Virus record (IMG/VR): IMGVR_UViG_3300037189_020288
Coordinates: 1-46,791 of that record
DNA from: a virus
DNA: 46,791 nucleotides
Direction: 5' to 3' (one strand)
Positions 1 to 38,126 of the stretch are shown in pieces. Each line of letters opens with the position of its first letter. The stretch's first letter is position 1. Below the pieces are notes generated by a model, which did no database searches, was not told the DNA's origin, and was given only the letters and a program-made list of their open reading frames with translations. The position numbers and the translations under genes are program-made.

Positions 1-1728
1 TACTTCTTTCGTTGCGTAGTCGATGCAAAACGCGCCGCCCGGGTGTCGGCAACTGATAAGCAAATCGCCAGTGACAGGGTGCACGTCGATTGAATTAGCG
101 TGAAAATAATCGTAGTGCGGGCCAATATTGAAGTACTCGTCGCTGTGCCAATCCCACACAATGGTTTGTCCGTCGGCAGACAGTTCTTGAATATACAGTT
201 CGTTATTGGGCATGTACGTGCCGGTGCAACCGTACGCGTACGTCATCGAGATAAAGTTGCCGCGGCGGCCTTCGGGGCCGGCGATCATGTGCGACTCGTG
301 GCACTCCCAAATAGGCTGCGAGTTTGACGAGTCGTTTTTCATCGTGTAGTTCGTGGCCGTCATCTGATTCAGGCCAAGTTCTACGGCGTATCGAGTAGCA
401 TCCCCCCACGTGTGCAGCACCAGTTTGTTCGGCACTGTACAGTGGAGCGAAGAGCCGTTATGCCGGTCGTCGTGGGTGTACCAGACAGGCGTGCCGTTTT
501 CGTTAAACACGATGAAGTAGTTTGCGCCATTACCTTGGGACGGGTTGTACAGATAGTAGCCGGGACGATACCCGGCGGTCTTTGTCTGCACTGTGACCAT
601 CGGCAGGTCGGTCGGGATAACCCGAATAAAATACTCCTGCGCGCCGTATGTGACGTGCAGTGCTTTATTGACGTCAATTGAACCGGTTGTGTTAGCGCCG
701 TTGATCGTCAGGCTATAAGCGTCGGTGCCGTTTGTGTCGGAGTAAATGCAGTAGTCTTGAATCGATGGATTAAACGCCGGCATTAAACTGCCGCTGCTGC
801 CATCAATACTGACGTCAAGCGTAGTAATTTGCGCAGAAGCCGAAACCTCAACAAACATGTCAGAGGTCAGCGGCGGTTTTGGCATCAACTGGCTGATTAG
901 CGCCGTGGCATACCAGTAGATCGTTTTGCCCGCAGCGCCAGTCGCGTCAATGGCCAGCGTATACGGTTCAACATCGTCGTCTGCTGTAGCACGAACACTG
1001 ATACCAGCCGCCACAGACCAATCGTTTTCAGCGGTGTTCTCAATGATGGGGCTGCCCACAAAAACAACACCGTCACCACCTAAACCACGTTTGACGCCGC
1101 CGCGAATTGTCCACACAGCCGTTACGTCAGTCGTTATATCGTAAGCCGTGACTTTGATATCAAAATTCCAGATAACACCGATTGGAACTTCAAGGCGCCT
1201 AGCAGTGGATACGCCGCTAGAATAAGAAGCTACGCCATCCAGCGCCAGTACAGTCGCCGCGTCCGAAGTGGTTTGCCCGCGCAAGTTATAGATACTGAAC
1301 TGCGCGTCGCCGGGGGTGTTAAATGCGCCGCTCGAAATCGCCACTTGACCAAAAGAACTGGCCACCGCCTGTTTGCCGATAGCCAGAGAATTTGCAGCCG
1401 TCGCAGAAGATCCGGCGCCAGCCAGTACAGCGGCATTAGCGCCAGATACTGTGTTATCTGCACCGCCGCCAATAAAGCCGTTGAGCCCAGATACGGTATT
1501 TGTGTTGCCGCCGCCGATGAAACCGTCTGTGCCTGTTATTTCATTGTTCGTGCCGCTGTTGATGTCAGCGCCCGTAGCGTACGCAAGCAAGTTCCACGGC
1601 GTAGTCCCGTCGCCGTACTTGACCTTGTTTGTGTCCGTTTCAAGGCACGGCTCGCCCGGCTCCAGAACCGGATTCAGTTCTGCCAGATAAGCCGCCGTGC
1701 CACGTTTAACGCGAATTTCAATAGTCAT
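1..1728 (-). CDS. Tail adhesin with arylsulfotransferase-like propeller (3' end cut by window edge)
   Basis: The frame runs open from an ATG at 1728 to the left edge (576 codons, no stop), so the C-terminus is missing. Residues 1-50 form a phage tail docking-type domain (RRGTAA-like start, then GEP..ETDT and KYGDG..PWN), like that of the next gene upstream. Residues 55-135 are GGGN-NTVSG / NSLAIG repeats of the YadA-head/Hep_Hag type, expected to form a trimeric left-handed beta-roll. Residues 140-285 look like a beta-rich tail-fibre domain. Residues 300-372 resemble a cadherin-like beta-sandwich (PAFNPSIQDY). From about 385 the sequence matches the arylsulfotransferase (ASST) propeller pattern, with FHANS..VHPVTGD..ISCR and a likely catalytic-type His near residue 543. 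It shares this C-terminal architecture with the 9388-12015 gene. Role inferred: host-surface binding or modification. Sulfotransferase activity is not proven. No clear Shine-Dalgarno is visible. Confidence 0.85.
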   Translation of the reverse strand, partial: MTIEIRVKRGTAAYLAELNPVLEPGEPCLETDTNKVKYGDGTTPWNLLAYATGADINSGTNNEITGTDGFIGGGNTNTVSGLNGFIGGGADNTVSGANAAVLAGAGSSATAANSLAIGKQAVASSFGQVAISSGAFNTPGDAQFSIYNLRGQTTSDAATVLALDGVASYSSGVSTARRLEVPIGVIWNFDIKVTAYDITTDVTAVWTIRGGVKRGLGGDGVVFVGSPIIENTAENDWSVAAGISVRATADDDVEPYTLAIDATGAAGKTIYWYATALISQLMPKPPLTSDMFVEVSASAQITTLDVSIDGSSGSLMPAFNPSIQDYCIYSDTNGTDAYSLTINGANTTGSIDVNKALHVTYGAQEYFIRVIPTDLPMVTVQTKTAGYRPGYYLYNPSQGNGANYFIVFNENGTPVWYTHDDRHNGSSLHCTVPNKLVLHTWGDATRYAVELGLNQMTATNYTMKNDSSNSQPIWECHESHMIAGPEGRRGNFISMTYAYGCTGTYMPNNELYIQELSADGQTIVWDWHSDEYFNIGPHYDYFHANSIDVHPVTGDLLISCRHPGGAFCIDYATKEV

Positions 1729-1740
1729 GATAACTCAGTG

Positions 1741-4700
1741 TCAGAAGGGTGCTGTGGGCGGCGTGAAGTCGCTTGTGTAGAGCGCCTGTTTTATAATGCG
1801 AACTTCATCAATAATTACGTTAGATTCAAACCCGCCGGCTGTTGGTACGAAACCGAGGCACAAAATATACGGCCCCGGTTCTGGCGCTTGCGTGCTGGTA
1901 CTTACGGCAACGCCCTTCACGTATAGCGTTGACGTGCCATTAGAGCGAACAACGGCGATGTGGGTCCACTCTCCAACGTTTGCGCCGCCGCCCTGCAATG
2001 CGCCAGAAAAACCGTTATTGCATTCAACGGGTCCGCTTGAAGCGATGCAAAGATGCAATCCACCAAAATAGCTATAGATATCATCAGAAGCGCTCAAGAA
2101 CAACAAAGTGCTGTAATTAAAATTTGACTGACGGTAAGCCCAGCATTCAATGGTGAAATCGCCAGTCGAAAGGTCAGGTACGTTGCGCGTGGTTGACGCA
2201 AAACCGGTTTGATTGTTGCAGTTGTACGCCGCGGCGCCAAACATCTTGGTTGACGTATCAAATACACCCGGCGGCGTCGGGAAAGTTAAACCCGTCGGAG
2301 ATGAATCGACAAGGTTTGACGGGCCGTCGCAGTGCAAGAGTAGTACCGGTAAAACCGGCGCATAAAAATTGACAAACACGGGGTAAAAATTACTTTCGTA
2401 CCGCGCGGCCTGCGTCAGGCGCATGTTTGACATATACACGTTGGCATACATATCAAAGTCGTGCCCGTCGATTGTTTCCCAGTACGCGGGGTTTCCGCTA
2501 CAACTCGGCGACTGATTCACGGAACAAGCGTTAACGCCGTCCACAAATAACGCTGTAAATTGCCCAGCTTTTCCGACCAAGGCAATATGTTGCCAACGCC
2601 CAAGTTTGACAATGTTTGCCGCTGTGCGCGCCACAAACCCGGCCCCGTCAGCCGGCAGGCACCCGCCACTGTTTATGCTCAAACTCTTGTCACCCCACAT
2701 TACAATAGTGCATGGATCTCCGCCGTCACTGCGCAGCACAAGAAACGCAGAATCATTTGCCCCACGAGACGGGTCCACAGATTCGGTGTACAGCCAGAAC
2801 TCATAAGTAAAATCTTGCGTGATGTCTGGCAAGAAACCAGAGCCATCCATTCCGGCGTTTGAATACATGCCGACGCCCTGAGTCCCGTATAGTGCCGTGG
2901 TGTTTGGACAGCCTTGCGGCGCTGTTGTGAACGACGGCAACGAGTTGCCGGGCGCATGCCAGTTTGTAGACAGATCAGATGCGCTCGTGAAATGATTCAG
3001 GTATTTTACATCAGCGGAATACGGGTCACTGGCTGGTTCAAAACTCGGCCCGCCAAACGCTTGCGTGGGCGGCGTGAAGTTTTCGGTGTAGACCGCCTCG
3101 CCCTTGACGATGCGGAGTTCGTCGATGTAGCCGTGGAAGAACTCGCCGCTGCTGCCCTGCTGTGCGATCCACAAATCCGCGCCATTATCAGGTTGAACGG
3201 CCCACGGCCCAGAATCCGCCAAAACGCCGTCGACGTACAGCGACATAGTTCCGTTCTGGTAGCACGCCGCAACGTGGTACCACTGATTCAAATTCAACTC
3301 AAACGGCGTCATCAATTCAGAAACGCCTCCGCTGCTATTAGCGCTAAGATATAAATTCCTTGTCGCCGGATTACTAAAACCACACAACCACTGCCAGTTG
3401 ACCCCGGTTCGGCGAGTAATAACCGTTGTGTAACTATCTGCATACGAAAGCATATGCATCCAGAATTCAACCGTAAACGGCTCGTCGCCAGTCAAATTAA
3501 ATGCGTCGTTTGATGCAATTTGTAAATAACTGTTGTTAACAAAATCAAAATACGCAATTGTCGGACCAAATTTAGTCTCGTTTGTGCTGATTTGAGCGTT
3601 GCCGCCGGCGGTTACAGTTAGCATATTTGGCGACGAATCAATGAACTGGTTGTCGCCGTCAATGCCGTCAAAGTGCAGGAGCAATGATGTTGTTCCGCTA
3701 GACGAAACAATAGGCGGCGCGGTTACAAACTTGTCAGCAAGATACTTCTCGACGGCCGCAAGCGCCGCAACGCCCAGTTTGTGGTCGTAATGAACCACGG
3801 CGGCGATGTCACCTTGCAGCGATTCTGGGGACTGAAATGAGCCTCCAAAACCTAAGAGAAGTTCGGCGCCGGCCATAGAGGCCATGTCAGCGTACAGCGT
3901 TTCAGAAACTTCTTCTCCGTTTATGCGCAACTTTAACAACCCAGCAGCGTCGACTGTGTAACTGATTAATGTCCAGTCAATCGGCAGGGTTGTTGGAAAA
4001 CCACCACACTCTGCAGCGTTATAATTTCCAGTGCACGATGCGTTGTACAACTCCAACCTGCCTTGCGGTTTGTGTACATTTAGCGTTAAACCGTCGAGTT
4101 GGCTAAAGTCGGTCCCCGCCGCTGGTTGAAAACTAATGATTCTTGCGTAATCGTTGTCGTTGGCTGTTTGCCGCACTACAACAAAACCGCTGGAGTTCTT
4201 CAAGTTGAACTGGTGGTTGACCTGCATCACGTTCGGGTCGCCGTTGAAGTGCACGGCATTCTTACCCGTCGGCGTGGCGCTGATTGCCAGTGTCGGAACA
4301 GGGGCGTAATCAGCGTTAGCGGCATTGTTGTTACTGCCGCTCATGTCACCCCAACCGAGAACCGTATCGTTGAAGGTCGTGAAATCAGAATCAGCGCCGT
4401 CCAGCCAGAGATCATTGCCTGTGATAAGTTTGGGCGTGAAGGGGCCGATAAACGGCTGGGTGGGTGGCGTGAAATCAGTGGTGTAGACAGCCGTGCCCTT
4501 GATTACTCGGAATTCGTCAATGTAACCAGTAAACCCGTCTCCCGCACCTTCTGCCGTCCCTAATGAGGCGGAGGCGCTGAGTGTGAAATCATAGGCCACA
4601 TTGGTGTCTGCTATCTTTGTTCCGTCAACAAATGCTCTGACAACACCGCTCTGGCACGTGATTGCGAGATGAAACCACTGGCCTGTAGAAACGCCTAGGG

Positions 4701-7700
4701 CCTCAATTATAAACCAGCCGTACGGCTGCCGGCCGATCATCAGTTCTCCATAATCTGAAAACACGACAAACAAAGATCCGGCGCAGGTCGCGACCTGCGG
4801 ACCCAACAACGCCGGATAATTGGAGAATGTTGTGGCGTTTATCCACATTTCAATTGTGAAATCAGCGGTGCCAAAATGAAATATTTCGGGATCAAAAGAC
4901 ACGCGACTGGAGCCGTCAAAGTACCCGCTTGCCCCACCAAATTTGCTTTGAGCAGTTCTAATGACTGCGTTGCCGTTGGCCGTGACTGTCAACGCGTTAG
5001 AAGATGAATCCGTGAATGTCGTGCTGCCATTCGCGCCATCGAAATGAAGCAGCAAGTCAGCAGTAATCTCGGGCACAAATGGATTCAGGAACGCAGCAGT
5101 CGGCGGCGTGAAGTCTGCCGTATAGCGCGCGACGCCCTTGGTGATGCGGAGGTCGTCGATGTATCCGTACAGCGACCCTTGAACTGACCCGCCATCAAAA
5201 AAACCCGCGAAGGTTGGCTGACCGTCATACGGTGACGAGTCAGTGATCGCCGCGCCTACCATCGCACCGTCTATGAATAACTTCACTGCGCCATTTTCTC
5301 TAGCCGCCGCAATGTGATGCCACTCGTTTGATGTTATGTAGTGGTCGGAAAACGAGGTGTTTGCATTTGTGCCTTCGTTATACCAGTTCAGAATATTGTT
5401 CTGGAGATAGATCGACGGCCTAAAATCTCCGGCGACCTGCCCGCCCCTCCAGTCAGCGAGAAACACAACCTGCTCTTCTTTCAAGTAGACCCACATCTCG
5501 ACGGTGAAGTCGCCCGATCCGAGGCTTAAATCGCCGGAAGCGGACAGTCGACACTGCGCGCCATCATTGTAGTAAGACGATCCTCCAAACTTGCTCTCGG
5601 TCGTGCTGATGTACGCGCTGCCATTTGCAGTCACCGTGTTCTGCAGATACGAATTATCTGTAAATACCGTACTGCCATCCGCGCCGTCCATGTGCAGAAG
5701 CAGGACAACGTCTTCTGCGTACGGGTCGCCAACAGGCGCTGTATCAATAGGATCTGCAAATTCGCGTGTCGGGGGCGTAAAGTCCGCCGTATAACGCGCG
5801 ACACCCTTAGTGATGCGAAGGTCGTCGATGTACAAAGTTGTTCCTGATGACGAAAACTCTGCTACATCTCCGGCTACGGAGCCTATTGATGCGTCGGTAG
5901 AGTTAGGCCAGTTTATTGAGTCAGTACTTGTGTATGAGTCATTCTGCACTCCATCCACAAACAACATGTAATCCGAACCGTTTCGGACTATGGCGAAGTG
6001 CTGCCATGAATTGAGCGGCAAATCAGTTGCAGAACCCAAGAATGGCATTTGCCAACTGCCGTCTATTTTGGCGTCTACACGAAGTTTGCCGTCCGTATAC
6101 ACGTAGCAATTCAGTCCTTCAGGCACATTGGCCGATCTGCCATTGCCAAAAACTCCCACTTGAGACCCGACCGACGACGCTCCGATGTAGTGCCACCATT
6201 CAATGGTGAAGTCACTTTCTCCAAAATTGAATGTTTCGGCAGGAAATTTGATAAAACTTCCGTCACCTTCAAACTTACCGCTGCCATTACCAAATTTGAC
6301 AGTTGTCAAATCAATCCGCGCGCCGCCGCTGGTCGTGACCTCGTGGTGATACTTGGAATTGTCGTAGAAGTAGGTGACAGGTGTTTCGGGCGCAGTCATG
6401 GCGCTAAGCGGGGCTGATGGAGGCGTAAAATTCGCAGTATACACCGCAAAGCCTTTCACGATGCGAAGTTCATCGATGTAGCCGTGGTATGCATCTACGC
6501 TGGCTAACTCGTGCGCTCCGCAACCAATTGTGAGTGGTTGAGCCGCGCCAAGATCTATTACGCCGACGTCTTCTTCAAAAGCGATTACGCCGTCAACGAA
6601 CACTCGAATAACCGTACCCGCGCGTGTCAGCGCCACATGCGCCCATTGCTCTAGCGGCACAGAAACATTGCCAGAATTATTCAACCAATAAAAAGAGTTG
6701 CCGGCAAGATAGAGCGCATCGCCGGCGGTGAGCCGCCACAAAATTCCATTCGCATATGTGCCAACAGACACAACTGAATTTCTAGTGGCGGAAAACATAT
6801 ACGTAAACATTTCGATGGTAAAATCGCCAGTGCCAAAACCAAATAGCGGCGATTCTTCGTATGTCAACGTAGCCACCGGATCGCCAGAGAAATAGCCGCT
6901 AGAACCGCCGAACTGATTCTGCTCTGTCGAAATTAACGCATTAGAAGAATTTATTGGCATTAGCGCATTATTACTGCTATCTGTAAATGAATCACTGCCG
7001 TCGGCGCCGTCAAAGTGGAGTAGCAGCGCCGCGGGTAATCCGCCGGCGCTGAACGGCGCTGTCGGCGGCGTGAAGTTATCCGTGTACAGGGCCGTGCCGT
7101 TTGTGATTCTGAGTTCGTCCACGTAGCCGTCGTTTATCGGGCTTTGGTTGTTGCCCCAAACGCCAATTCTAAAATCAGCCGCCGCTACGGGGTCAGAAAC
7201 TCCAGAGTCATTTTGCGCCTCCACTTGCCCGTTTAAAAACAGAGTGAAGACAGAACCCTGACGCACGAAAGCGATATGGTTCCAATCATTCAGTGTCACA
7301 TAATTACTACCAAAAACACCGTTTGCAAGATCCCAACCGCCGCCGCTGCTCGCCCACATACCGATTCTGCCGTCCAAGTACATCATCACGCCATATGTAA
7401 AATCGTTGGCGCCGGCGAACAAACACTGGCAACCGCCATTCCCGCCGCCGTTGTTATATGTTGTCGGATAAAAGAAACACTCTATCGTAAAATCAGCCGG
7501 TAAATCCAATGCGCCATTTACATTTGTTACGGTCAAATATCTGGCTGCATGAACGTTTTCATCCGACGGGAAATAGGCGCTTGTGCCGCCGAATTTGCTT
7601 TGAGTGTTGGAAAGTTGGATGCCGTCTCCGCCCGTAGCCGTCGTCGTCAGCGCATTCGCGCCACTGTCAGTAAATGTTGTGCCGCCGTTTGAGCCATCAA

Positions 7701-7715
7701 AGTGGAGCAGGAGCG
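1741..7715 (-). repeat. Tandem LamG module repeats within the giant adhesin
   Basis: The module junction encoding DFTPPT recurs as near-identical DNA (plus strand ggcggcgtgaagt or close variants) at about 1757, 3067, 4455, 5104, 5769, 6420 and 7063. It is followed by a conserved stretch encoding the I-D-E-L-R-I strand. Spacing is about 640-670 bp for single modules, and twice that or more where divergent modules intervene. The pattern indicates growth by intragenic duplication and gives homologous sites for module gain or loss. Confidence 0.8.
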
Positions 7716-9369
7716 CATCGGTTGTGACTGGGCCGGCGGTTGTGTTGTTCGGCGACTTGTTCATGTGAAGCAGGAGCGAAACGTTGTCGCCGTAAACATC
7801 TGTCGCAAAGTTTTCTTTGCCAAACCCGCCGTTCCAGAGCATGCCGATGTCAGTAAGACTCAGGGCGCGACTCCAAATACCAATCGAATCCAGCGCGCAC
7901 GCAACGCTGTTTTGCAAACCACCCTGCTCGCCAACACCGACTTGCAGTATGTTCGTGGTGTCAACGAGCGTGCCAGTTACATCCGCGCTATCAGCGAGCA
8001 CGTTGTCTACGTACAGCCGCGCTTTGCCCGCGTCAGCATCGAGCGACAGAACGAAGTGCCGCCACTCGTTCGCGGCAAGTGCAGGATACGCCAGCCGAAA
8101 CTGACCGCTTGTTGTACGGACATAGGACACCAGTTCGTTAGTATTTCCACTTTCATCGCCCCAACCAAGTACAAACTGGCCGTCTGGTGCGTTGCCGTCC
8201 CAGTTCTGCATGATCTCGCCGAACGTGCCGGTCGTTGTGGGCAACTTGAACCAGCCTGAGATAGTGAAACTGGGCGTGAGTTTCAGCGTGGGGTGCGACA
8301 GGTAATTTGCGCCGCCAGTAAAATTACCGGCATTTCCAAGCACGCCGGGCACGCTGGCAACAGTGCCGGTTTGCACAAGCGTATTTCCACTGCCACTGAT
8401 ATCTAAACGGCTGCCGTTCTCCTCGTTCATCGGCCAGAACGCCGTCATGCCGTTGAGAAGCGGGTGCACGACCTGCGTAATTCCCCAGCGGCCCAGCAGA
8501 TACTCTTCAACCTGCGCCCGCTCTGTGTCGGTAAGTACTCGGCTATACAGCACGATTTCGGCAATATCGCCGTTAAACGCGCCAGCAGCATAATCAGCGC
8601 GCGACGAACCCAGTGCAAACTGCGTGAACGTACCAACCGTGTCTTGCTCTGTGGTTTGAGCCGTCAGGCCATTCAGGCTCGTGGTGAACGACGCCGAATC
8701 ACAAGCAACCATGTACACAGCCGGCGCGAACGTCGTAACTTCTTGCGGCGAATAATAGTTGTCACCAACCCGCGCAGCCACGTGCGTCGCGTCTTGCATA
8801 ATGCACGGAATAAACCCGCTAGCGTTAGTGTCTGTCGGGTGGTTCAACGCCGTAAATACACGCCCAGCTGTACTTGTGCCGCGAGGGTTTAATACCACTA
8901 ACAGCGTGAAGCCGGGCTCTAAATCAAAACTACTGAGCATGGCGTCATTCGTGCCGTCAAACGTAACGACGCTCAAATCATTGATCGTGTTGCTGGCTGC
9001 CGGGCGGTTGGCTTTGAGCGACTGGAAGAAGTGCCGCTTGTGAATCGACTTGTCATCCCACTGCGCCACTTTGTTATTAACCAGCGACACAAAGTCGGGA
9101 TCTGCGGCGTCGAGCCACAGCGCCAAACCACTCAGATTCGGCGGCGTGAACTCAGGTGTCGTGCCAGCAGACGCGCGGGCTAGTTCGCCACCGTCCACCA
9201 AATTAACGTCGGGGTTCGCGTACGGCAGGTCATTCCACGCAGTAACGCCGTCGCCAAGTTTAAACTTTCCGGTGTCAATTTCGTGAATGGGTTCTCCGCG
9301 CAGCAACACCGGATTGACGGCGTGCAGGTCGGCGGCGGTACCACGGCGTAATTGAATTTTTGCTGACAT
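1741..9369 (-). CDS. Giant multi-LamG (ConA-like lectin) tail adhesin
   Basis: 2,542 aa from ATG 9369. Residues 1-55 are the tail docking-type domain (RRGTAADL, GEPIHEIDTGK, KLGDGVTAWN). The rest is about 11 LamG/concanavalin-A-like jelly-roll modules, beginning near residues 73, 300, 550, 770, 985, 1200, 1425, 1645, 1890, 2120 and 2340. Typical modules start LLLHFDG..GSTTFTDSS, carry SKFGG..GYFDG, DFTIE.W and GYIDELRI, and end YTADFTPPT.PF. Modules near 73 and 1645 are a divergent subtype (LWLDAADPDF / WLDGADSDF). Such domains usually bind carbohydrate or other surface ligands, so this is probably a long receptor-binding fibre. The gene follows the 875-aa adhesin with an 18-bp gap. No convincing Shine-Dalgarno is visible. 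I see no catalytic domain or protease signature. Confident on domain class; the ligand is unknown. Confidence 0.92.
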   Translation of the reverse strand: MSAKIQLRRGTAADLHAVNPVLLRGEPIHEIDTGKFKLGDGVTAWNDLPYANPDVNLVDGGELARASAGTTPEFTPPNLSGLALWLDAADPDFVSLVNNKVAQWDDKSIHKRHFFQSLKANRPAASNTINDLSVVTFDGTNDAMLSSFDLEPGFTLLVVLNPRGTSTAGRVFTALNHPTDTNASGFIPCIMQDATHVAARVGDNYYSPQEVTTFAPAVYMVACDSASFTTSLNGLTAQTTEQDTVGTFTQFALGSSRADYAAGAFNGDIAEIVLYSRVLTDTERAQVEEYLLGRWGITQVVHPLLNGMTAFWPMNEENGSRLDISGSGNTLVQTGTVASVPGVLGNAGNFTGGANYLSHPTLKLTPSFTISGWFKLPTTTGTFGEIMQNWDGNAPDGQFVLGWGDESGNTNELVSYVRTTSGQFRLAYPALAANEWRHFVLSLDADAGKARLYVDNVLADSADVTGTLVDTTNILQVGVGEQGGLQNSVACALDSIGIWSRALSLTDIGMLWNGGFGKENFATDVYGDNVSLLLHMNKSPNNTTAGPVTTDALLLHFDGSNGGTTFTDSGANALTTTATGGDGIQLSNTQSKFGGTSAYFPSDENVHAARYLTVTNVNGALDLPADFTIECFFYPTTYNNGGGNGGCQCLFAGANDFTYGVMMYLDGRIGMWASSGGGWDLANGVFGSNYVTLNDWNHIAFVRQGSVFTLFLNGQVEAQNDSGVSDPVAAADFRIGVWGNNQSPINDGYVDELRITNGTALYTDNFTPPTAPFSAGGLPAALLLHFDGADGSDSFTDSSNNALMPINSSNALISTEQNQFGGSSGYFSGDPVATLTYEESPLFGFGTGDFTIEMFTYMFSATRNSVVSVGTYANGILWRLTAGDALYLAGNSFYWLNNSGNVSVPLEQWAHVALTRAGTVIRVFVDGVIAFEEDVGVIDLGAAQPLTIGCGAHELASVDAYHGYIDELRIVKGFAVYTANFTPPSAPLSAMTAPETPVTYFYDNSKYHHEVTTSGGARIDLTTVKFGNGSGKFEGDGSFIKFPAETFNFGESDFTIEWWHYIGASSVGSQVGVFGNGRSANVPEGLNCYVYTDGKLRVDAKIDGSWQMPFLGSATDLPLNSWQHFAIVRNGSDYMLFVDGVQNDSYTSTDSINWPNSTDASIGSVAGDVAEFSSSGTTLYIDDLRITKGVARYTADFTPPTREFADPIDTAPVGDPYAEDVVLLLHMDGADGSTVFTDNSYLQNTVTANGSAYISTTESKFGGSSYYNDGAQCRLSASGDLSLGSGDFTVEMWVYLKEEQVVFLADWRGGQVAGDFRPSIYLQNNILNWYNEGTNANTSFSDHYITSNEWHHIAAARENGAVKLFIDGAMVGAAITDSSPYDGQPTFAGFFDGGSVQGSLYGYIDDLRITKGVARYTADFTPPTAAFLNPFVPEITADLLLHFDGANGSTTFTDSSSNALTVTANGNAVIRTAQSKFGGASGYFDGSSRVSFDPEIFHFGTADFTIEMWINATTFSNYPALLGPQVATCAGSLFVVFSDYGELMIGRQPYGWFIIEALGVSTGQWFHLAITCQSGVVRAFVDGTKIADTNVAYDFTLSASASLGTAEGAGDGFTGYIDEFRVIKGTAVYTTDFTPPTQPFIGPFTPKLITGNDLWLDGADSDFTTFNDTVLGWGDMSGSNNNAANADYAPVPTLAISATPTGKNAVHFNGDPNVMQVNHQFNLKNSSGFVVVRQTANDNDYARIISFQPAAGTDFSQLDGLTLNVHKPQGRLELYNASCTGNYNAAECGGFPTTLPIDWTLISYTVDAAGLLKLRINGEEVSETLYADMASMAGAELLLGFGGSFQSPESLQGDIAAVVHYDHKLGVAALAAVEKYLADKFVTAPPIVSSSGTTSLLLHFDGIDGDNQFIDSSPNMLTVTAGGNAQISTNETKFGPTIAYFDFVNNSYLQIASNDAFNLTGDEPFTVEFWMHMLSYADSYTTVITRRTGVNWQWLCGFSNPATRNLYLSANSSGGVSELMTPFELNLNQWYHVAACYQNGTMSLYVDGVLADSGPWAVQPDNGADLWIAQQGSSGEFFHGYIDELRIVKGEAVYTENFTPPTQAFGGPSFEPASDPYSADVKYLNHFTSASDLSTNWHAPGNSLPSFTTAPQGCPNTTALYGTQGVGMYSNAGMDGSGFLPDITQDFTYEFWLYTESVDPSRGANDSAFLVLRSDGGDPCTIVMWGDKSLSINSGGCLPADGAGFVARTAANIVKLGRWQHIALVGKAGQFTALFVDGVNACSVNQSPSCSGNPAYWETIDGHDFDMYANVYMSNMRLTQAARYESNFYPVFVNFYAPVLPVLLLHCDGPSNLVDSSPTGLTFPTPPGVFDTSTKMFGAAAYNCNNQTGFASTTRNVPDLSTGDFTIECWAYRQSNFNYSTLLFLSASDDIYSYFGGLHLCIASSGPVECNNGFSGALQGGGANVGEWTHIAVVRSNGTSTLYVKGVAVSTSTQAPEPGPYILCLGFVPTAGGFESNVIIDEVRIIKQALYTSDFTPPTAPF

Positions 9370-9387: not shown

Positions 9388-12015
9388 TCAGTTGACGATA
9401 GTGGGAGTTAAACCGGCAGTGGAGCGCAAATAGTCGGCGTCAAAAAACTCTTTTTCAACTTTGAGTATCCTATACAAATCACCCGGAAAATCTACTGCAA
9501 AGACGGGGTTAACACCGGGACTAGCGCCGTCACCGGCATCTGCGTATTCAACAAGTTGTGGGTGCTGGCCGTTGAAATCAATCACGTGGCTATACGCGCC
9601 GTTTTTGTGCAACACGACGTGATAACTACCAAGATAACCAGACGGACCGACAGTTGAAAAAATACTGGAACGATGAACGGCTTTATTTTGCGCCAAATCA
9701 ATTTCGTACATGACACCGCGAGCGTAGGGCGCGCCATTTGGAAAATAATTTTGCGCTTTCACCGCCGTAATTGTGCCATTTGCCGTAACGCTATTTGCCG
9801 TCGGAAGAGTGTAGGTAAACGTGTTGTTGTCGATTTTTGTGACCAGAAAAACGCCGTTAAAAGCGCTTTGATTAGCACCGCTGATTTGAACATATGATCC
9901 GGTCGTAAACCCGTGGGCGGTCGCAACACCAGTGACAGTCGTGCCACTTTGAATAAGCGATGTCACAGTTTTCAACGAAATTTGTGAGGCAGCGCCGGCG
10001 AAAAAGTTTGTCTGATTATCGAATATTGTGATGACCTGATTGCCGGGTGTCAGCGGATCTACATGCGGACACCAACGCGCGTGGTGCTGCCCGCAAGTGC
10101 CGATGTATTGAAAATTTGCGTGCGTAGGTTCTGAATCAAGTGTCAGGTATTGCGTGTCCGCTGTAGTTGTTGGGTCAGCGACCGCGGCGAGCGTGACTGA
10201 CGTTGTTGACGGCGGACCCTGAATCACCCATTTGACCGCTTTTGTCGTGCCGTCAATGCACATCAAAGCAGAGCAGTTACGCATGCTGCATAACACGTCA
10301 CCAGTAACTGGGTGCACATCTGCCGAGTTCATATGAAAAAACGACGAAACCTGAGTGGCAGCCGTCTGATTGAAGTAATTACCGGTCCACCAATCCCACG
10401 CAACTTGTCCGGTTGTCGGGGTCTGTTCTTGGATATAAATACCGTATGCTTTGTCGGTAATCTGTTGTGATCCAGCCGCAGGGGTCGTCGGGAAGGCAAC
10501 TGTAAGAACGTTGCCGCGGCGGTTAGGCGGGCCGGAGAGTTGCAACAGTTCGTGCTGCTGCCAGTCAATAATTGGACTTGTGTATGTCGTGCCGTTCTTG
10601 GTCGTAGGCAGAAACGAGTAACCACGCGACAATGCCGCGCTGGCGGTTAAATTGATAACATAACGTTGACCAGATGTACCGTTACGGCGGCTAATGACAA
10701 CCGTGTTTCGGTCGTTGCCCGGATGATTGATCTGCGGCAGGCCGGCTTCTTGGCTGTACCAAAACGGCAGACCGTTTTCGTCATAAATGACGTTGTAGTT
10801 TGCCGCGTTGATGTCGCGCCGCGATGTGGTCAGGTAATAGCCCGGAATGTAGTCCGTCGTTGGCTGCGTCGTAATCGTACCCAGCGGCATGTCCGATGGC
10901 AGCAGCCGGATGTAGTAGGCCGAAGAACCAAACGCCACTCGAATAATTTTTCCAACAGGCGCGCTATCTGTAATAGCCACGCCATTGACCGTCAGTGTGT
11001 ACGTGACCGCGTTGCCGAGCGTCGCGGAACTTGTCAGCACGCCGTAATCGTGAATGTTGGTATTGAACGCGGGAAACAATGCGCCGGTCGAGCCTGCGAC
11101 AGAGATTGCCAGCGACGCTACCGGCGCGAACGTTGATACGTTGATAAACGACGCGGGATCAATCGGCATCGCTGCGATCGGCGGCAACGAATAAGCAGCG
11201 CCGCCACCGTTAAATAATCTTGCGGCCTCGGCGGCTGTAAGTGCGCGGTCCCAAATACCGGCGCAATCAAAACTCACATTTACTGCGGGATTGAAAGACC
11301 CAAACGTTACAACGTCGGATTCGATAGCCGTCAGCGTGTCTGTCAAACCAGTTGCGGTCGCGTTTAATACGCCGTTTATGTAGATCTTTGCGGCAGCGGC
11401 GTTGCTACCGATTGTCTCTCGCACAAGCGTGATGTGCGTCCACGCGTCAACCGGAATAGCCGCCGCGCTCGTGGCTGGCGACGAGCTGGCTGTTGTTTGT
11501 TCAGTCCAACTCAAAGTGCGATTTGAATTTATTTGGACGTAACCTGTTTCATTTAGCACACCGAACGGCCCAAACGAAAGAATCGTTGTTTCGACCTCGG
11601 GCGCAGCATAGATTTTCAACCAAAACGCAATTGTGCGTCGCGTAGAAAAAGAATGCGGCGCGTATAAAAAATTAGCATGCGATAACGTCAGTCCGGTGTT
11701 TTGAACGCTAGGTGTTGCCGTCGTGGCCGAAACAGGAACAAAGAGCGGATGTGAGTTGCCAGATACGTCGGGCACATTACCGACAGTCTGATCAAACAGC
11801 CAAAACGCATGAAGACCATTAAGCAGGCTGTCATACACAATTTCGCCGCCGTCGACACTGGCGGCTTGCGTTAGCTCAACCACAGTGCCGTCGGCTTTAC
11901 GTGTAAAAAGTTTGCCGTCCGCGGTATTAACAGCCAACTCACCGGCAGACAAATTATCGGCGGCAGGAACAGCGCCAGTTACATCGCTACGCTTATGCTT
12001 GATGATATTTGTCAT
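9388..12015 (-). CDS. Tail adhesin: docking domain, LamG, cadherin-like and arylsulfotransferase-like propeller
   Basis: 875 aa from ATG 12015 (AGGGT about 5 bases upstream). Residues 1-50 are a tail docking-type domain (KHKRSD, NLSAGELAVNTADGKLF). Residues 60-275 are a LamG-like jelly roll (GLHAFWLFDQ, HANFLYAP, WTHITLVRE, AGIWDRALTAAEA). Residues 300-372 look like a cadherin-like beta-sandwich (LFPAFNTNIHDYGV). Residues 385-870 match the arylsulfotransferase propeller family: FWYSQEAG, DWQQHELLQL, FHMNSADVHPVTGDVLCSMR (560-578), IDGTTKAVKW, GQHHARW (642-648) and VITIFDN. The His residues at 561 and 644 are where the family keeps catalytic His. A beta-rich insert at about 683-755 (AHGFTTGSYVQISGA, FNGVFLVTKIDNNTFTY) is a phage-type repeat placed inside the propeller. 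It is paralogous to the 1-1728 gene. Enzyme activity is unproven; the fold could serve only for binding. Confidence 0.85.
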   Translation of the reverse strand: MTNIIKHKRSDVTGAVPAADNLSAGELAVNTADGKLFTRKADGTVVELTQAASVDGGEIVYDSLLNGLHAFWLFDQTVGNVPDVSGNSHPLFVPVSATTATPSVQNTGLTLSHANFLYAPHSFSTRRTIAFWLKIYAAPEVETTILSFGPFGVLNETGYVQINSNRTLSWTEQTTASSSPATSAAAIPVDAWTHITLVRETIGSNAAAAKIYINGVLNATATGLTDTLTAIESDVVTFGSFNPAVNVSFDCAGIWDRALTAAEAARLFNGGGAAYSLPPIAAMPIDPASFINVSTFAPVASLAISVAGSTGALFPAFNTNIHDYGVLTSSATLGNAVTYTLTVNGVAITDSAPVGKIIRVAFGSSAYYIRLLPSDMPLGTITTQPTTDYIPGYYLTTSRRDINAANYNVIYDENGLPFWYSQEAGLPQINHPGNDRNTVVISRRNGTSGQRYVINLTASAALSRGYSFLPTTKNGTTYTSPIIDWQQHELLQLSGPPNRRGNVLTVAFPTTPAAGSQQITDKAYGIYIQEQTPTTGQVAWDWWTGNYFNQTAATQVSSFFHMNSADVHPVTGDVLCSMRNCSALMCIDGTTKAVKWVIQGPPSTTSVTLAAVADPTTTADTQYLTLDSEPTHANFQYIGTCGQHHARWCPHVDPLTPGNQVITIFDNQTNFFAGAASQISLKTVTSLIQSGTTVTGVATAHGFTTGSYVQISGANQSAFNGVFLVTKIDNNTFTYTLPTANSVTANGTITAVKAQNYFPNGAPYARGVMYEIDLAQNKAVHRSSIFSTVGPSGYLGSYHVVLHKNGAYSHVIDFNGQHPQLVEYADAGDGASPGVNPVFAVDFPGDLYRILKVEKEFFDADYLRSTAGLTPTIVN

Positions 12016-12029
12016 CTTTTACCCTGTGA

Positions 12030-13979
12030 TTAGTATGCGCCGCCGTCCAGAACAGACGATGTGTATAAAACAGTGCCGCCGGCACCAAGCGCAATTGCTG
12101 CGCCATCGGCCCCGCTAAACGCAAGCGTGTTGTTCGCGGTAAGTGTTTTACCGTTTACAATCGTGAGCGTTGCGCTCGTAGCCGGTTGTGTGAGCGTGAC
12201 TTTGTTGATAGACGTCGCCGTAGCGGCGCCAATTGTTACGATGCTCGTGGATCCCGCAGCTGGGGCAGCGCCCACACTGGCCGCGGTCAGGGTCACAGCC
12301 CCTGTTTGTCCGTTTACGCTGCTTATGATATTTGAAGCCGGACTTCCCGCAGCGCCAGTCGCGCCTTGAGGGCCGGTAGCTCCTGTTGCACCGTCGCTGC
12401 CGGCGGGTCCAGCAAAACCGCCCGGTCCGGTTGCTCCGCTCACGCCAACCGGACCTGTGGCGCCCGTAACTCCAACAGGACCAGTAGCGCCAACAGGGCC
12501 AGAAGCACCAGTCACACCAGTGGCGCCTGTAGAACCGGAAGTTCCATTTGTACCCGCCGGGCCAGTTGCGCCAACAGGGCCAGAAGCACCAGTCACACCA
12601 GTGGCGCCAGTAACGCCCTGTGCGCCGCTGATACCAGTAGCACCCTGTATGCCTGTCGCGCCTGTGACACCAACAGGCCCAGTAGCGCCAGTAATACCGA
12701 TTGAACCAGTAGCACCGGTTGAGCCTTGTATGCCTGTCGCGCCTGTGACACCAACAGGCCCAGTAGCGCCGGTAATACCGATCGCGCCGGTTGCACCTGT
12801 TACGCCGGTGATTCCACGTAAACCAGTAGCACCAGTGATACCGCTCGCGCCCTGCGGGCCACGAATAGGCCCGACGTTTACCCACGCGGTGCCTGTCCAC
12901 ACAACACCGTCGCCAGACAAGCCATCGGGCGCGCCGGCTGGAATTGGCGTACTTAGTAGCCACATGTCGCCGATAGACGGGCTGAGCGATGGCGGCCAAG
13001 AATAAACAGTGCCTTTGATAGTTACGCCGGACCCTGCGTCACCTTTAGGGCCGGTTGGACCAGTGATACCTGTTGCGCCCTGAATGCCGGTAGAACCAAC
13101 TACGCCGGTCGCGCCGGTTACGCCGACAGGACCGGTTGCGCCGGTGATGCCGCGTACGCCAGTCGCGCCTGTAATGCCATCCAAACCAGTAGCGCCAGTT
13201 GGGCCGTCGGCGCCTGTAGGGCCGGTTACGCCAGCCGCGCCCGTCGCCCCCGTTACGCCCCTTAAACCTGTTGGACCAGCTATACCGGTTGCGCCAGAAA
13301 TACCAATTGGGCCGGATGGGCCTGTCGGTCCGGTCGGTCCGTTGACGCCGGCAGAACCAGCCGGGCCTGTCGCGCCTGTTACACCAATAGAGCCGGCAGC
13401 GCCACTAACACCAGTAGCACCCTGTATACCTGTGGCCCCGGTTATACCTATTGCGCCGGTAGGACCGGCAATACCGGTCGCGCCCGTCGTACCGACACCA
13501 GTAGCGCCGGTTACACCAGTCAAACCGCGTAAACCCGTTGCACCAATTACTCCGGTGGCGCCAGTCGCGCCCGTAGTGCCCGCGGCGCCAGTGGGACCAT
13601 TAATGCCGGCCTCGCCAGCGGGGCCTGTCGCACCAGTGGCGCCGACAACGCCTGTCGCACCCAGCGGACCAGCGACACCTTGATAGCCGGTCGCACCGAG
13701 CAAACCAGACTGACCAGCCGGCCCCTGCGGACCAGTTGCGCCGGTGGGACCAACCACGCCAGTAGCGCCGGTTACGCCTGTCGCGCCGCGCAATCCTGTT
13801 GCACCGGTTGCGCCGGAGGCGCCGTCAACGCCAGTGGGACCACTTACGCCAAGAAGCGCACCAACAGTAGTGCGCTTTGTAACAAGGTTATTTGGATTCT
13901 GCGTATCAACGATCGGGATAATGTCGTTGAGCGCCGGTGTCTGCTTTTCAGGCAACGACGAGATTTTTTTATTTGCCAT
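12030..13979 (-). CDS. Collagen-like tail fibre protein
   Basis: 649 aa. The ATG at 13979 is preferred over an upstream GTG (13988) because AGGTG lies about 8 bases before it and overlaps the GTG. Residues 1-45 are a typical fibre N-terminus ([22 protein letters not shown]), probably for tail attachment. Two collagen-like G-X-Y blocks follow, at about 46-315 and 372-546, some 140-150 triplets. They are dominated by GATGxxG, GPTG and GITGATG and are Thr-rich like bacterial collagen-like fibres. A non-collagenous segment of about 55 residues ([35 protein letters not shown]) splits them. The C-terminal 100 residues are beta-prone ([16 protein letters not shown], then [14 protein letters not shown]) and probably trimerise the fibre or form its tip. 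First gene of the adhesin cluster. Confidence 0.9.
12340..13840 (-). repeat. Collagen-like G-X-Y coding repeat
   Basis: Short 9-18 bp units encoding GATG, GPTG and GVTGATG recur through this stretch in two blocks separated by unique sequence at about 12865-13030. Several units are near-perfect DNA copies, for example the pair around 12490-12600 and the pair around 12650-12770. This favours slippage or recombination and length variation. The repetitiveness also produces long open frames on the opposite strand and in another minus frame, which are artefacts. Confidence 0.85.
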
Positions 13980-13993
13980 AGCGCGCACCTATT

Positions 13994-15099: not shown

Positions 15100-15723
15100 T
15101 TAACGTACAACAGTCGAACCCCGGTAAGCGTCCGAGAACAGACGATACACATAAGCGTGCGTTTCTTCCACATCACGATCGGCATTGATGTGGTGAACAA
15201 TTCCGGTGTGCGGACTATTTGCCGCGTGTGTTTGATAGGCTGCGCGCATTCTGTTTTGATCTTCAACACAGCGCCGCTCGTAACGGTCGCTAGGTCCGCG
15301 AGGACGCCGTGATCGCGAAACCACCGGATCAATGTCCATTAAAAAACAAACGTCGGGACAAACGCACGATGTTGCGCAAAAAATGTTTGTGATCAAATCG
15401 AGGGCGATATTGTTTATTTCCCCCTGATACACGAGTGTCGACAAAAGCCACCTATCACAAATAATAACAACACCGGCCCGCATCTGCTCTTCAATATGCG
15501 CGGATAATTCGGCACGAGCCGCAGAGAAAAGAAGCATCTGTGCCGCGGGAGATATCGGATCGTCGTTGTGCAGAAGGATTTGCCTGATAGCCGTTCCGAT
15601 TTTCGTCGTGCCGGGATCTGCAACAAGTTCAGCGGGCACGTTTTCTTTTGTTAACCGCTGATACAGCATGCGCGCCTGCGTCGTTTTGCCGGCGCCGTCA
15701 ATACCCTCAAAGCAAACAAACAC
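15100..15723 (-). CDS. tmk: Thymidylate kinase (dTMP kinase)
   Basis: 207 aa from GTG 15723, with AAAGG 7 bases upstream. It should phosphorylate dTMP to dTDP for phage DNA synthesis in the cytoplasm. The P-loop FEGIDGAGKTTQA is at residues 5-17. DPGTTKIGTAIR corresponds to the family REPGGT..G motif with Arg replaced by Asp or shifted. CDRWLLSTLVYQGE matches the DRY..S..AYQG substrate motif. PDVCFLMDIDP and the Arg-rich lid (RSRRPRGPSDRYERR) follow in the expected order. Length is normal for the family. The altered REPGGT motif hints at changed nucleotide preference. The next gene is 18 bp away. Confidence 0.93.
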   Translation of the reverse strand: MFVCFEGIDGAGKTTQARMLYQRLTKENVPAELVADPGTTKIGTAIRQILLHNDDPISPAAQMLLFSAARAELSAHIEEQMRAGVVIICDRWLLSTLVYQGEINNIALDLITNIFCATSCVCPDVCFLMDIDPVVSRSRRPRGPSDRYERRCVEDQNRMRAAYQTHAANSPHTGIVHHINADRDVEETHAYVYRLFSDAYRGSTVVR

Positions 15724-16802: not shown

Positions 16803-17846
16803 TTAAACTAGTCTCAGTATTGTCCGCCACCCCAATTCAAATGATTTACTACGTGTAGACAAGTTGTAATTCACTCGTTTGTTGAGGTTGTCGATGTGGC
16901 CGGGCTCAGCAATCATCGTTTGCAGTACAGTCACCAATTTTTCATAGTCTGGCGCGGCGTGTGGGACGCCGTTATCGTCATAATCAACGCGTGTTTTTAC
17001 AAGCACGCCATTTGCGTCTTGATACACGAAATCGATTTGTGGGGATAGAGCAAAAGACAAGACTGGCGTGCCGCAGCTAATCGATGTGAGGCTGCATAAC
17101 CCGTAGTTGTCGCACTCTGCCGGAAATAACGTCAGATCGTGCGCCGTGTACATCGCCGGGCGTTTAGATAACTGAACGTTGCGCACAAGTTTGACCCGCC
17201 CGTGTGTTTTGCGCCCAAGCGTTTGAAAAAACTTGGCAATAGACGGCGCAAACCGGCTAGACGTAATAGCCACGGTCAGCTGCGCGTCCGGCATTCGCTC
17301 AAGCAAGTAACCGAGCAAACCCAAAAACTGGCTGTGGGCGCAGCGGGCATTCCGGTCAAACCACGGCAAAAATATCTTTATCTGCCGGCTGTTGATTGCT
17401 TTCGTTTTTTTAATTGCCGGCAAACCGACGTCAAATGGGATAAACGTGACATTTTTCAGTTTGTATATTTTGGCAAACAACTCGCGCGCTTCGGCGTTCA
17501 TGGCAATTACGTGATCCGCCCTGTTCATAACTTTTTTGAACGGGCGCTCAAGTTCTTGCCACATCGGCACAATAATCGTCCGAACGCCGACGCGCTTGGT
17601 GTAGTTAAGCGTGTCTAGTTTGGGAGGGTGCGTCCAGATAATGATTTGGCAAGTTTTTGCCCATTGCGTAAATGAGCATTTCTTTTTGTGCACCACGCTA
17701 CGGTCGTATTCTGTTTTCAACTTGGCCGGCTGTGTGTTTGAATACAGCGTGCAGTCAGCGCCCTGAGTGCGTAAAAACCCAGCAAGACGCAGCGCAAAAT
17801 ACGCTTCGTCGCAGTGCGCATAATGTGTATAGATGCCGATACGCAT
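16803..17846 (-). CDS. GT-B (GT4-like) glycosyltransferase
   Basis: 347 aa. The ATG at 17846 starts MRIGIYTHYAH, the usual first strand of a GT-B fold, and sits 1 bp after the portal stop codon (TAGTATG). The N-terminal half ends with DHVIAMNAEARELF. The C-terminal half has the GT4 layout: KIFLPWFDR near the domain junction, RVKLVRNVQL, MYTAHDLTLFPAE and NYGLCSLTSISCGTPVLSF. The EX7E motif is altered (Asp in place of the first Glu, Thr in place of the second), so catalysis may be atypical. The family transfers sugars from nucleotide-sugars. The target here could be phage DNA, a virion protein or a host glycan; nothing in the sequence decides. Confidence 0.8.
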   Translation of the reverse strand: MRIGIYTHYAHCDEAYFALRLAGFLRTQGADCTLYSNTQPAKLKTEYDRSVVHKKKCSFTQWAKTCQIIIWTHPPKLDTLNYTKRVGVRTIIVPMWQELERPFKKVMNRADHVIAMNAEARELFAKIYKLKNVTFIPFDVGLPAIKKTKAINSRQIKIFLPWFDRNARCAHSQFLGLLGYLLERMPDAQLTVAITSSRFAPSIAKFFQTLGRKTHGRVKLVRNVQLSKRPAMYTAHDLTLFPAECDNYGLCSLTSISCGTPVLSFALSPQIDFVYQDANGVLVKTRVDYDDNGVPHAAPDYEKLVTVLQTMIAEPGHIDNLNKRVNYNLSTRSKSFELGWRTILRLV

Positions 17847-17847
17847 A

Positions 17848-19779
17848 CTACTGAGCAGGCGGAGCCCCTTGCGGTTGTCCTTGCCCAAATTGCTGCGCCA
17901 TCATCATTGCGCCACCCTGAGACCGCGCCTGCTGACGAATATCGTCGATGATGCTCGTAACCAATGCGTGCATCGTGGCGTCAGAGCGCTTTAGCTTAAT
18001 CAGTTCAGAATCCTTTACAGACTCGGGCATAGACAGCAACTGGTTGGCTATAAGCTGGGCCTGTTGCTGTAGGTCTTCGGGCGTTCGCGGCACATTTGGC
18101 GCGTTCTGTCGCTGCGATAAGAACTGGTCGACAGGACTCGGCATCTGACCGGGGACGCCACCAGCGGGCGCGCCGCCCTGCGCCGGCGCCGGCATACCGG
18201 TGGCCCCAGCGCCGGTATTACCGACGCCCGCTGTCATGTCCGGCGATTGACTCATGTCTTTCATTTGCTGCGCCTGCTGCATCTCAGCCTGCATGCGCTC
18301 TTGCTCTTCCGCGTAGATCTTTTCCTCTTCAAGCATCTGCTTGATTTCGTCTTTGTAATCAAGCCCGACACTGGCAAGCCCAGTGCTCTTGCTGATCTGT
18401 TGACCCTGCATAAGCTGCAACTTCGCCATCTGGCGATTGAGGTCGTCAGCATGCGTGACACGGACAAGTTTCGCGTTAACCGGCTCCCACGACATGACTC
18501 GGGAAAGCGACGATGCAAGTTCGTTTAAGAACAAGTTCATGTTGTGCGGCAAATGGCTCCAGTTCGCCTCAAATAGGCGTAACGCTGCCGGGGCTGCTTG
18601 CAGCGTCAGCGTGCCGTTAAACAGTTCCACTGGCATGCCGATGCATTTCAGCAACGTTTCAAGACCCTGATCCAGTAACTCGCGCGGGGCAAGCTGCTGC
18701 GCGTCGCCGCCCAGCGCCTGATAATTGACCGGAAACGGCAAAACATTCCAGCGCGCCGGATCGGTGCGGCGTGCACGAATCATGGCATTAACGCGCGCTG
18801 TAAAGCTGGATAAATTAATCGTGTGCACCGGGTCGGAAGACTGCCCGTCACCGCCGCGTGGCGCCGGCGTAATCACGCGGAACGGGATAACATAATCCAG
18901 CGCTACTGCTTCGTTGTAACGCTGTAGAATCTGGTAGTACCAAGCCTGCCGGAAGTTTGCGAGGATGCGAGAAATACCCCAGCCGCGATTACGCATGCCG
19001 GCCAGCGCATCTTCGCGCAGATGAAAAACGACGCCCTTATCAAACATCAAATTCTTGCCATCTTTGATTGCCTGAATAACTTCCCAGCTCGCGCGCTCAA
19101 GATGGTGAAGATGACCTTGCTTGATAAGCGTCCGATAATCTTCAGGGATCTTCCACACATACGAGCACTCGCCGGTATACGGATCCCACAGCAGATCAAT
19201 CTCGTGCGGGCTCCAACGTTTAACCGAGATGTGCCCGGTGTCACCACTGCGGCGGTCGATGTGCTTCCACGGGCCGACATATTTGCAGTTCGGACACGTA
19301 GCGTGAAACTGAAAGTTCTGCCATGAAAACGCGCAAGCGTCAGAGTTGTGCACGCGGTCAAGCGGCATCTCAAGCGCGCACTTCGGGCAGAAGAGGTAGC
19401 GGCGAAACGGGATAATAAGGCTGGTAAAAGAATTGCCGTAGGTCATGTAATCCATGCCAACGGTTTTCAGCACGTTCTTAATACTGAGCGTTTCAGATAA
19501 AAACGTCTGATACTTTTCTTTCTCTTCCCGACCAGTCTTGTTTTCGCCGATGTCTTGAATTTCGACGTCTGTAATAAAGTACGAGACAACGCGGTCAATG
19601 GCCTGCCGGTAGGGGCCATTCGCGTTCATGATGTATTCAGACCAGCGCAGCGCCGTCTGGATGCTCTCGGGCATCGACAGGCTGGCTACGTCGCAAAACG
19701 GGTCGGGAAATCGCTCGTCGGCCTGAACGCCGCGGCCGAGCGAGTTGTACCCCATAGAAGCTGCAGGTAATAGCGTCAC
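17848..19779 (-). CDS. Portal protein with inserted zinc-ribbon-like segment
   Basis: 643 aa from GTG 19779 (GAGG 7 bases upstream). Portal proteins form the ring at the capsid vertex through which DNA is packaged. Portal-like features: an N-terminal segment with ALRWSEYIMNANGPYRQAIDRVVSYF, the MTYGNSF motif near residue 110, RNRGWGISRI..NFRQAWYYQILQRYNEAVALDY, then PRELLDQGLETLLKCIGMPVELF and ALRLFEANW. The C-terminus is Gln/Gly/Pro-rich and probably flexible. CPKC and CPNC pairs about 35 residues apart (near residues 131-170) form a treble-clef or zinc-ribbon-like insertion, uncommon in portals. Followed by the glycosyltransferase gene. Confidence 0.85.
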   Translation of the reverse strand: MTLLPAASMGYNSLGRGVQADERFPDPFCDVASLSMPESIQTALRWSEYIMNANGPYRQAIDRVVSYFITDVEIQDIGENKTGREEKEKYQTFLSETLSIKNVLKTVGMDYMTYGNSFTSLIIPFRRYLFCPKCALEMPLDRVHNSDACAFSWQNFQFHATCPNCKYVGPWKHIDRRSGDTGHISVKRWSPHEIDLLWDPYTGECSYVWKIPEDYRTLIKQGHLHHLERASWEVIQAIKDGKNLMFDKGVVFHLREDALAGMRNRGWGISRILANFRQAWYYQILQRYNEAVALDYVIPFRVITPAPRGGDGQSSDPVHTINLSSFTARVNAMIRARRTDPARWNVLPFPVNYQALGGDAQQLAPRELLDQGLETLLKCIGMPVELFNGTLTLQAAPAALRLFEANWSHLPHNMNLFLNELASSLSRVMSWEPVNAKLVRVTHADDLNRQMAKLQLMQGQQISKSTGLASVGLDYKDEIKQMLEEEKIYAEEQERMQAEMQQAQQMKDMSQSPDMTAGVGNTGAGATGMPAPAQGGAPAGGVPGQMPSPVDQFLSQRQNAPNVPRTPEDLQQQAQLIANQLLSMPESVKDSELIKLKRSDATMHALVTSIIDDIRQQARSQGGAMMMAQQFGQGQPQGAPPAQ

Positions 19780-37900: not shown

Positions 37901-38126
37901 GGTTGATAAGGTGCGTGCCGACCGGCACCGTTTTCTTTTTCTTGGCGTCGGCAGCGTCTATCTCGTCGCCCAGCGCGATTGCGTGCGCAATAAAATCTGG
38001 CCCGGCTGGCGGCATGCCCGGTTCCGTCAAAGGAATGAACGGGTATGCCGCCGCCGTAAATTCTTCCGTCTTGGGATCGTACAGCGTTTGTGTTAACCGA
38101 TGAGTTAACGAAATACCCGAAGTCAT
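34962..38126 (-). CDS. Family A DNA polymerase with N-terminal uracil-DNA-glycosylase-like domain
   Basis: 1,054 aa from ATG 38126 (GAGG upstream). Residues 95-285 form a UDG-superfamily domain: VVGKLPGYYEMEQ (motif 1-like), WYVTFACKF, LLEQEIRMVQPEFILCLGNEAI and MHPSFVVRKPE (HPS motif). A DnaQ-like 3'-5' exonuclease follows: IIAIDCEWHG (Asp326, Glu328), VGGHFFRADLPWL (Asp400) and YASYDVD (Tyr495/Asp499). The polymerase has TGRASSSRPPLQNL, motif A METDLTGAELAVLAWL (Asp778, Glu783), motif B KGLRVAAKNVNFGIPYGRG (842-860), QNFPIQGGVADAV and motif C LQIHDAIVLL (Asp977). Motif C is HDA rather than HDE, so a usually conserved Glu is Ala. This is the probable replicative polymerase. Some other phage family A polymerases are also reported to carry UDG-like N-termini. 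Confidence 0.95.
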   Translation of the reverse strand: MTSGISLTHRLTQTLYDPKTEEFTAAAYPFIPLTEPGMPPAGPDFIAHAIALGDEIDAADAKKKKTVPVGTHLINLYRNALYRSDFHLPISHKSSKDLISVQFLPGHRWGKPGEPIDIYGPWHKSKVMVVGKLPGYYEMEQLSATVGPGMVALAEIFADCGIQPETYENWYVTFACKFAAPSDDITAVPAAWIKNCAILLEQEIRMVQPEFILCLGNEAIKAVMKTNSAVTGLSGRILDVSAYDAEGAARQIKAMAVMHPSFVVRKPEVTEDFIGQIRRFTALINDQILDEEAVDHADVYTEAALTEIVDAMIADPDPNANIIAIDCEWHGDYPTEEDAYLRTVQISNKDKWARTIVLRHEGGAEAFQPNLAAARAQLQRLLKSTPERHVRVGGHFFRADLPWLYDFGVDVRPEYAPASDPDDRTHGGWDTSLMYHAVNECARYGLDECSMRFTTAPTYWEPLDAWKKKYRADNKLKASEIGGYGNCPAHVLHPYASYDVDVTRRIMMRFYGTNGTDGLIARSNTGHDCWMPYWTAHNSSLAFLEMEMTGLEIDRNRADELTTLFMNTQDRLLAEIREELSWPNFNPKSQPQLSIALFGRDFADRYTNAPAVPDDARTLDLRPVKTTGKRPVLWNEMHYRGVNPETATPSTDKESLGILGHLNSTAAKIRDYKFTSQVLQSVLRKPSENEEGEIETDENGNYTYEKGLVGCVHADGKVRTHMFQTKETGRASSSRPPLQNLSSRREDDYKRIIGKDKYQHPVRSILRVPEGYVGMETDLTGAELAVLAWLSQDKNMIEHVRRNLLPEDHPDHYDIHSQQAVKTFHLDGVVPTKQGMADAGVKGLRVAAKNVNFGIPYGRGSEALARQCKEEGHEVTAEQCQAMIDAYFKSYPGTKTFLAECRLRSQNPGWLMGPYGRFRRFVPSKDRAVRGEQERQAQNFPIQGGVADAVSIALNNFYKYREEHTDIDYKIALQIHDAIVLLVPLEHAERVYKKVIPYCMIDAVEFWPRQLDGTLIAGAGPYHFGMSRDVFFHWGENLKPEKSRGLGVDWFCDE

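Follow-up and report, generated by a model that had tools for sequence, protein, structure and literature searches.

A large-phage tail fibre with a C-terminal arylsulfotransferase-family module and a predicted role in editing host-surface sulfate

An apparent tail fibre gene of a large uncultured phage encodes a C-terminal module of the arylsulfate sulfotransferase (ASST) family in which five active-site residues are retained. The gene lies in a 46,791-base virus record, the whole of which is hereafter called the window. There, an open reading frame of 875 codons coincides exactly with positions 9388–12015 on the minus strand (12015..9388), while the plus-strand reading of the same interval contains many stops. 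We favour, with a probability of about 0.6, the reading that the gene encodes a receptor-binding tail fibre and that its C-terminal domain works as a PAPS-independent, ASST-family sulfuryl transferase, editing sulfate on the host surface. A sequence-only reading had already noticed the ASST-like character of this protein, and our analysis bears that observation out; what it adds is the strand, a second copy at the left edge of the window, a small insertion domain and the finding that other large phages carry the module as well.

The fibre (copy 1; window coordinates here and below refer to the minus strand) begins 14 bases past a collagen-like tail fibre gene (12030..13988; PF01391, 2.4e-65; tail fibre PHROGs), and the same gene is found at five further loci, L063 and L064 among them. 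Residues 1–51 (11863..12015) form a long-tail-fibre or Mtd_N-like segment matching phrog_29752 (1.5e-8) and phrog_1699 (6e-8), both of which correspond to the N-termini of distal subunits of long tail fibres; this segment presumably attaches the protein to the virion. It is followed by a concanavalin A-like lectin domain of the LamG type at residues 124–264 (11224..11646; Laminin_G_3, PF13385, 1.2e-13). Of the LamG and docking-type domains proposed earlier, the former is thus present; no docking domain was found, and the N-terminal segment is tail-fibre-like instead. The ASST module spans residues 290–875 (9391..11148), with an N-terminal β-sandwich (~290–375) and a β-propeller (~376–875). A small domain inserted at residues 681–751 (9763..9975), phrog_9998, occurs elsewhere in phage proteins and is missing in the second copy and in distant modules. 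The two motifs that first drew attention to the protein, H.NS...HP.TGD.L.S.R and GQHHARW, are both present, the first as FHMNSADVHPVTGDVLCSMRN (H561, N563 and R579) and the second around H644.

Profile and fold searches assign the module to the ASST family, as the sequence-only reading had suggested. Both Pfam models of the family score above their curated cut-offs in copy 1, PF05935 at residues 555–670 (7.4e-9, 35.5 bits against a cut-off of 24.2) and PF14269 at residues 549–608 (1.7e-8, 34.7 bits against 27), and copy 1 therefore does not carry a chance motif; a search of NCBIfam gave no model for it. The second copy also exceeds both cut-offs (34.2 bits for PF05935 and 28.9 bits for PF14269), and PF05935 was matched in five of the six relatives with any ASST match, scanned whole or as the module. 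Against the PDB, a single-sequence phmmer search with copy 1 returned no match and a two-sequence profile reached only E = 0.085, prompting us to gather more members of the module. A profile built from one bacterial relative together with seven phage modules then retrieved Cpz4 (E = 4.5e-14) and E. coli ASST (2.7e-6), and a profile of 13 phage modules alone matched Cpz4 at 7e-7.

The predicted structures lead to the same family. For the copy 2 module (pLDDT 88, pTM 0.90), the best eight Foldseek matches were all chains of E. coli ASST (E from 1.7e-14 to 1.4e-13), followed by the next fold at 1.3e-6. The copy 1 model is of only moderate quality (pLDDT 78), and its best five matches were ASST or Cpz4. 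For both modules, the E-value rises by roughly four to seven orders of magnitude from ASST to the next fold, which groups them with ASST rather than with a different family of propellers. Residues ~290–875 of copy 1 thus form a β-sandwich and a propeller of the ASST type, six-bladed by fold match rather than by a blade-by-blade count. A search of BFVD found no ASST-like viral model, the best matches (1e-5, low TM-scores) being to propellers and fibres of a generic kind.

A 2026 review (PMC13426309) lists His252, His356, Asn358, Arg374 and Thr501 as the active site of E. coli ASST, grouped about His436, the residue that is sulfated transiently. In copy 1, the counterparts are His488 (10552..10554) for His252, His561 (10333..10335) for His356, Asn563 (10327..10329) for Asn358, Arg579 (10279..10281) for Arg374 and His644 (10084..10086) for His436. 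The spacing of H561, N563 and R579 is identical to that of His356-x-Asn358 and Arg374. His488 belongs to an HE motif (488–489) present in all aligned phage modules; E. coli ASST reads ATHES at residues 250–254, and Cpz4 has DLHD in this column. When the phage profile was aligned by hhalign with one Salmonella ASST, HxNS..R and R-x-V-x-Y-x-I-D were matched and the QH motif was mis-registered, so the equivalence of His436 and H644 rests on other alignments, including the PDB profile search, where the His644 column holds H in 3elq and N in 4p04, the H436N mutant.

All five residues are invariant in 12 of 12 non-redundant phage modules with a mean pairwise identity of 40%, an alignment in which 49 of 419 columns are invariant and the chance of five given columns all being so is 2e-5. 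The His/Arg comparison proposed in the sequence-only reading thus finds every His, Arg and Asn position kept. A wider scan, covering 21 loci and 17 non-redundant modules, shows the same residues invariant throughout; the scan patterns sat beside HxNS and at RGVxYEID and favour members that keep the DVHP..GD and RGVxYEID stretches, a bias that does not concern H488 or H644. Close module pairs have dN/dS values of 0.05 and 0.09 and are under strong purifying selection. Thr501 is not kept, its place being taken by Leu, Gln, Met and others in the phage modules. Since Cpz4 has Gln at this position, Thr501 does not define the family.

These comparisons also indicate how far the phage proteins stand from characterised enzymes. 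The ASST of E. coli CFT073 (3ELQ/3ETS/4P04) likewise combines a β-sandwich with a propeller and aligns at the five residues, but it is periplasmic, is about 13% identical over the fold and lacks fibre domains. Cpz4 of Streptomyces (9KF4/9KF6), the best PDB profile match, has the active-site residues in common with the phage modules but is an enzyme of secondary metabolism with no virion context. The nearest cellular relative found, an ASST of Ca. Dormiibacter (28% identity), has a similar N-terminal sandwich; it differs in being cellular and in carrying further repeats behind the ASST module in place of fibre domains.

The surroundings of the gene were traced beyond the window in IMGVR_UViG_3300032321_001270 (G001, 205,188 bases), which represents the same phage: the module is 100% identical, there is one mismatch in the 13,237 bases compared, and window position x corresponds to x + 74,763 on the G001 contig. 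This contig also carries a second collagen fibre, a tail-sheath-like protein, for which the Pfam sheath model stayed below threshold in G001, and a split RNA polymerase β′ protein. Because of the collagen fibre, the sheath-like protein and the split polymerase, we take the source to be a tailed phage of large size and probably of the myovirus type. The β′ fragment (PF04998, G001:C1:12103-14025) is of the multi-subunit type, for which phiKZ-like jumbo phages provide a precedent.

Searching the window with the copy 1 module revealed the second ASST fibre, 37% identical, at 1..1728, where the left end of the window cuts it to 576 of 762 codons. It is complete in G001 (C1:74203-76491), where its 762 residues comprise Mtd_N, a β-roll and the ASST module. 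The stalk between Mtd_N and the module is an antifreeze-like β-roll; the relative L062 has YadA-head repeats. Between the two ASST fibres lies a giant fibre gene (1741..9369) whose 2542-residue product contains Mtd_N and nine LamG stretches. In two fibre proteins nearby, Pfam Mtd_N lies where copy 1 has residues 1–51, and this N-terminal segment together with the position inside a fibre gene cluster marks copy 1 as a fibre-type protein. Bordetella phage Mtd and other Mtd_N fibres have the same type of N-terminal segment, but they carry a lectin-type receptor-binding domain and no enzyme.

The order collagen fibre, ASST fibre 1, giant LamG protein, ASST fibre 2 and collagen fibre is retained in the relatives L063 (205,044 bases) and L064 (198,101 bases). 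The second ASST fibre in the same phage and the gene order kept in relatives of ~200 kb are new here. The giant LamG protein has 2542 residues in the window, 2981 in L063 (4880-13825) and 3718 in L064 (4877-16033), a strong shift in length, as if LamG units had been gained and lost.

Pattern and profile scans of IMG/VR located ASST modules at 21 loci in 16 contigs. Fibre architectures differ among module-bearing contigs of 125, 152 and 163 kb: fibres of 1158 and 1645 residues that contain BppL_N or PA14/GLEYA domains end in the module, and a LamG fibre of 1863 residues begins with it. Across phages, the domains joined to it are Mtd_N, LamG, β-roll, PA14/GLEYA and BppL_N. This variety identifies the module as a movable building block of fibres. 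In a phylogenetic tree (midpoint-rooted for drawing only), the phage modules together make up a single, fully supported clade apart from the bacterial sequences; first copies group together (100/100), and second copies branch at its base but do not unite into a group of their own.

Among 50,697 deposited phage records, no ASST module was detected at tblastn sensitivity. Whole copy 1 matched deposited phages at its N-terminus only, and matches to the propeller region were short, had E-values of 0.08 and worse and fell outside the catalytic motifs (query residues 334–417 and the inserted domain). Records filed as phage that matched the module of locus L037 were rejected: two annotated ones were bacterial ASST genes on Salmonella Infantis contigs, and the remainder were unannotated pieces of 1.5–2.9 kb. 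The phage collection includes bacterial contigs: AFYI01000004.1, filed among phages, is a whole-genome contig of Salmonella Infantis with fadA, fadB and a chromosomal ASST.

In the mechanism we propose, the N-terminal segment would attach the fibre to the virion, LamG would help to hold surface glycans, and the propeller would use a sulfate ester to sulfate His644; from this sulfo-His644 intermediate the sulfuryl group would go on to water or an acceptor hydroxyl. The physiological act would be the editing of sulfate on host surface polysaccharide at adsorption, most likely by stripping or relocating it, and the two paralogous fibres of a phage may serve two sulfate linkages or two host glycans. 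A functional parallel exists in SGNH-hydrolase tail fibres (phage G7C gp63.1 and Klebsiella prophage receptor-binding proteins), which edit polysaccharide substituents and leave the chain uncut (PMC13123978); their reaction is the hydrolysis of acetyl esters, on an unrelated fold. We favour catalysis because the nucleophile and the sulfuryl-binding partners are conserved through such divergence, and a surface substrate because of the fibre setting. The precedent of the SGNH-type fibres and the activity of Cpz4, which sulfates a sugar hydroxyl of caprazamycin (PMC13426309), add to these grounds for sulfate editing. Against an enzyme count the replaced Thr501, the pLDDT of only 78 for the copy 1 model and the bias of the scan patterns. 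Characterised ASSTs moreover prefer aryl sulfate donors.

Alternatively, the propeller could be a receptor-binding lectin for sulfated glycans that kept the old sulfate pocket and lost turnover. Placement in a fibre beside LamG, the ordinary receptor-binding job of such proteins and the loss of Thr501 speak for this, yet a bare sulfate pocket would need no nucleophile, and the nucleophilic His and four further active-site residues stay invariant while the module drifts to 30–40% identity; we regard a lectin as unlikely. Less likely still is an enzyme that uses small aryl sulfates to sulfate glycans of the host or the phage, as a means, for instance, of masking receptors: all characterised ASSTs run in this direction, as Cpz4 does on its sugar hydroxyl, but a virion would bear only a few copies on its fibres, these would depend on a donor from outside, and the gene is located among fibre genes. 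An unrelated propeller with a chance motif, with which the empty single-sequence search would agree, is very improbable and for practical purposes refuted by the profile and Foldseek searches and by an active-site alignment with all five residues and the conserved His/Asn/Arg spacing.

The tail enzymes known to date cleave polysaccharides or deacetylate them. The open-licence PMC literature yielded no tail enzyme acting on sulfate, no paper on a phage ASST module and no characterised phage enzyme of this kind, in line with the sequence-only reading. A sulfuryl-transferring fibre would extend substituent editing by tails from acetyl to sulfate groups. The relatives in fibres of other large phages suggest that some phages edit host-surface sulfate groups. 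We lean slightly towards the broader view that large phages bear catalytically competent tail sulfuryl-transfer enzymes, often two per phage, and that sulfated surface glycans act as a phage receptor or barrier. If borne on the virion, such an enzyme would bring bacterial surface sulfation into phage host range as a factor that can be tested, suggest that the hosts of these uncultured large phages have sulfated envelopes, and supply new, possibly glycan-tuned sulfotransferases for biocatalysis.

No classical sulfatase (PF00884) was found in seven of the phage records. Just upstream of the fibre cluster, the window contains thymidylate kinase-like (15100-15723) and glycosyltransferase-like (16803-17888) genes. 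Farther along, it encodes a family A DNA polymerase of 1054 residues (34962-38126) with a 3′–5′ exonuclease domain, only 22–27% identical to those of cultured phages, to which a domain of the uracil-DNA glycosylase superfamily is fused N-terminally (residues 120–268).
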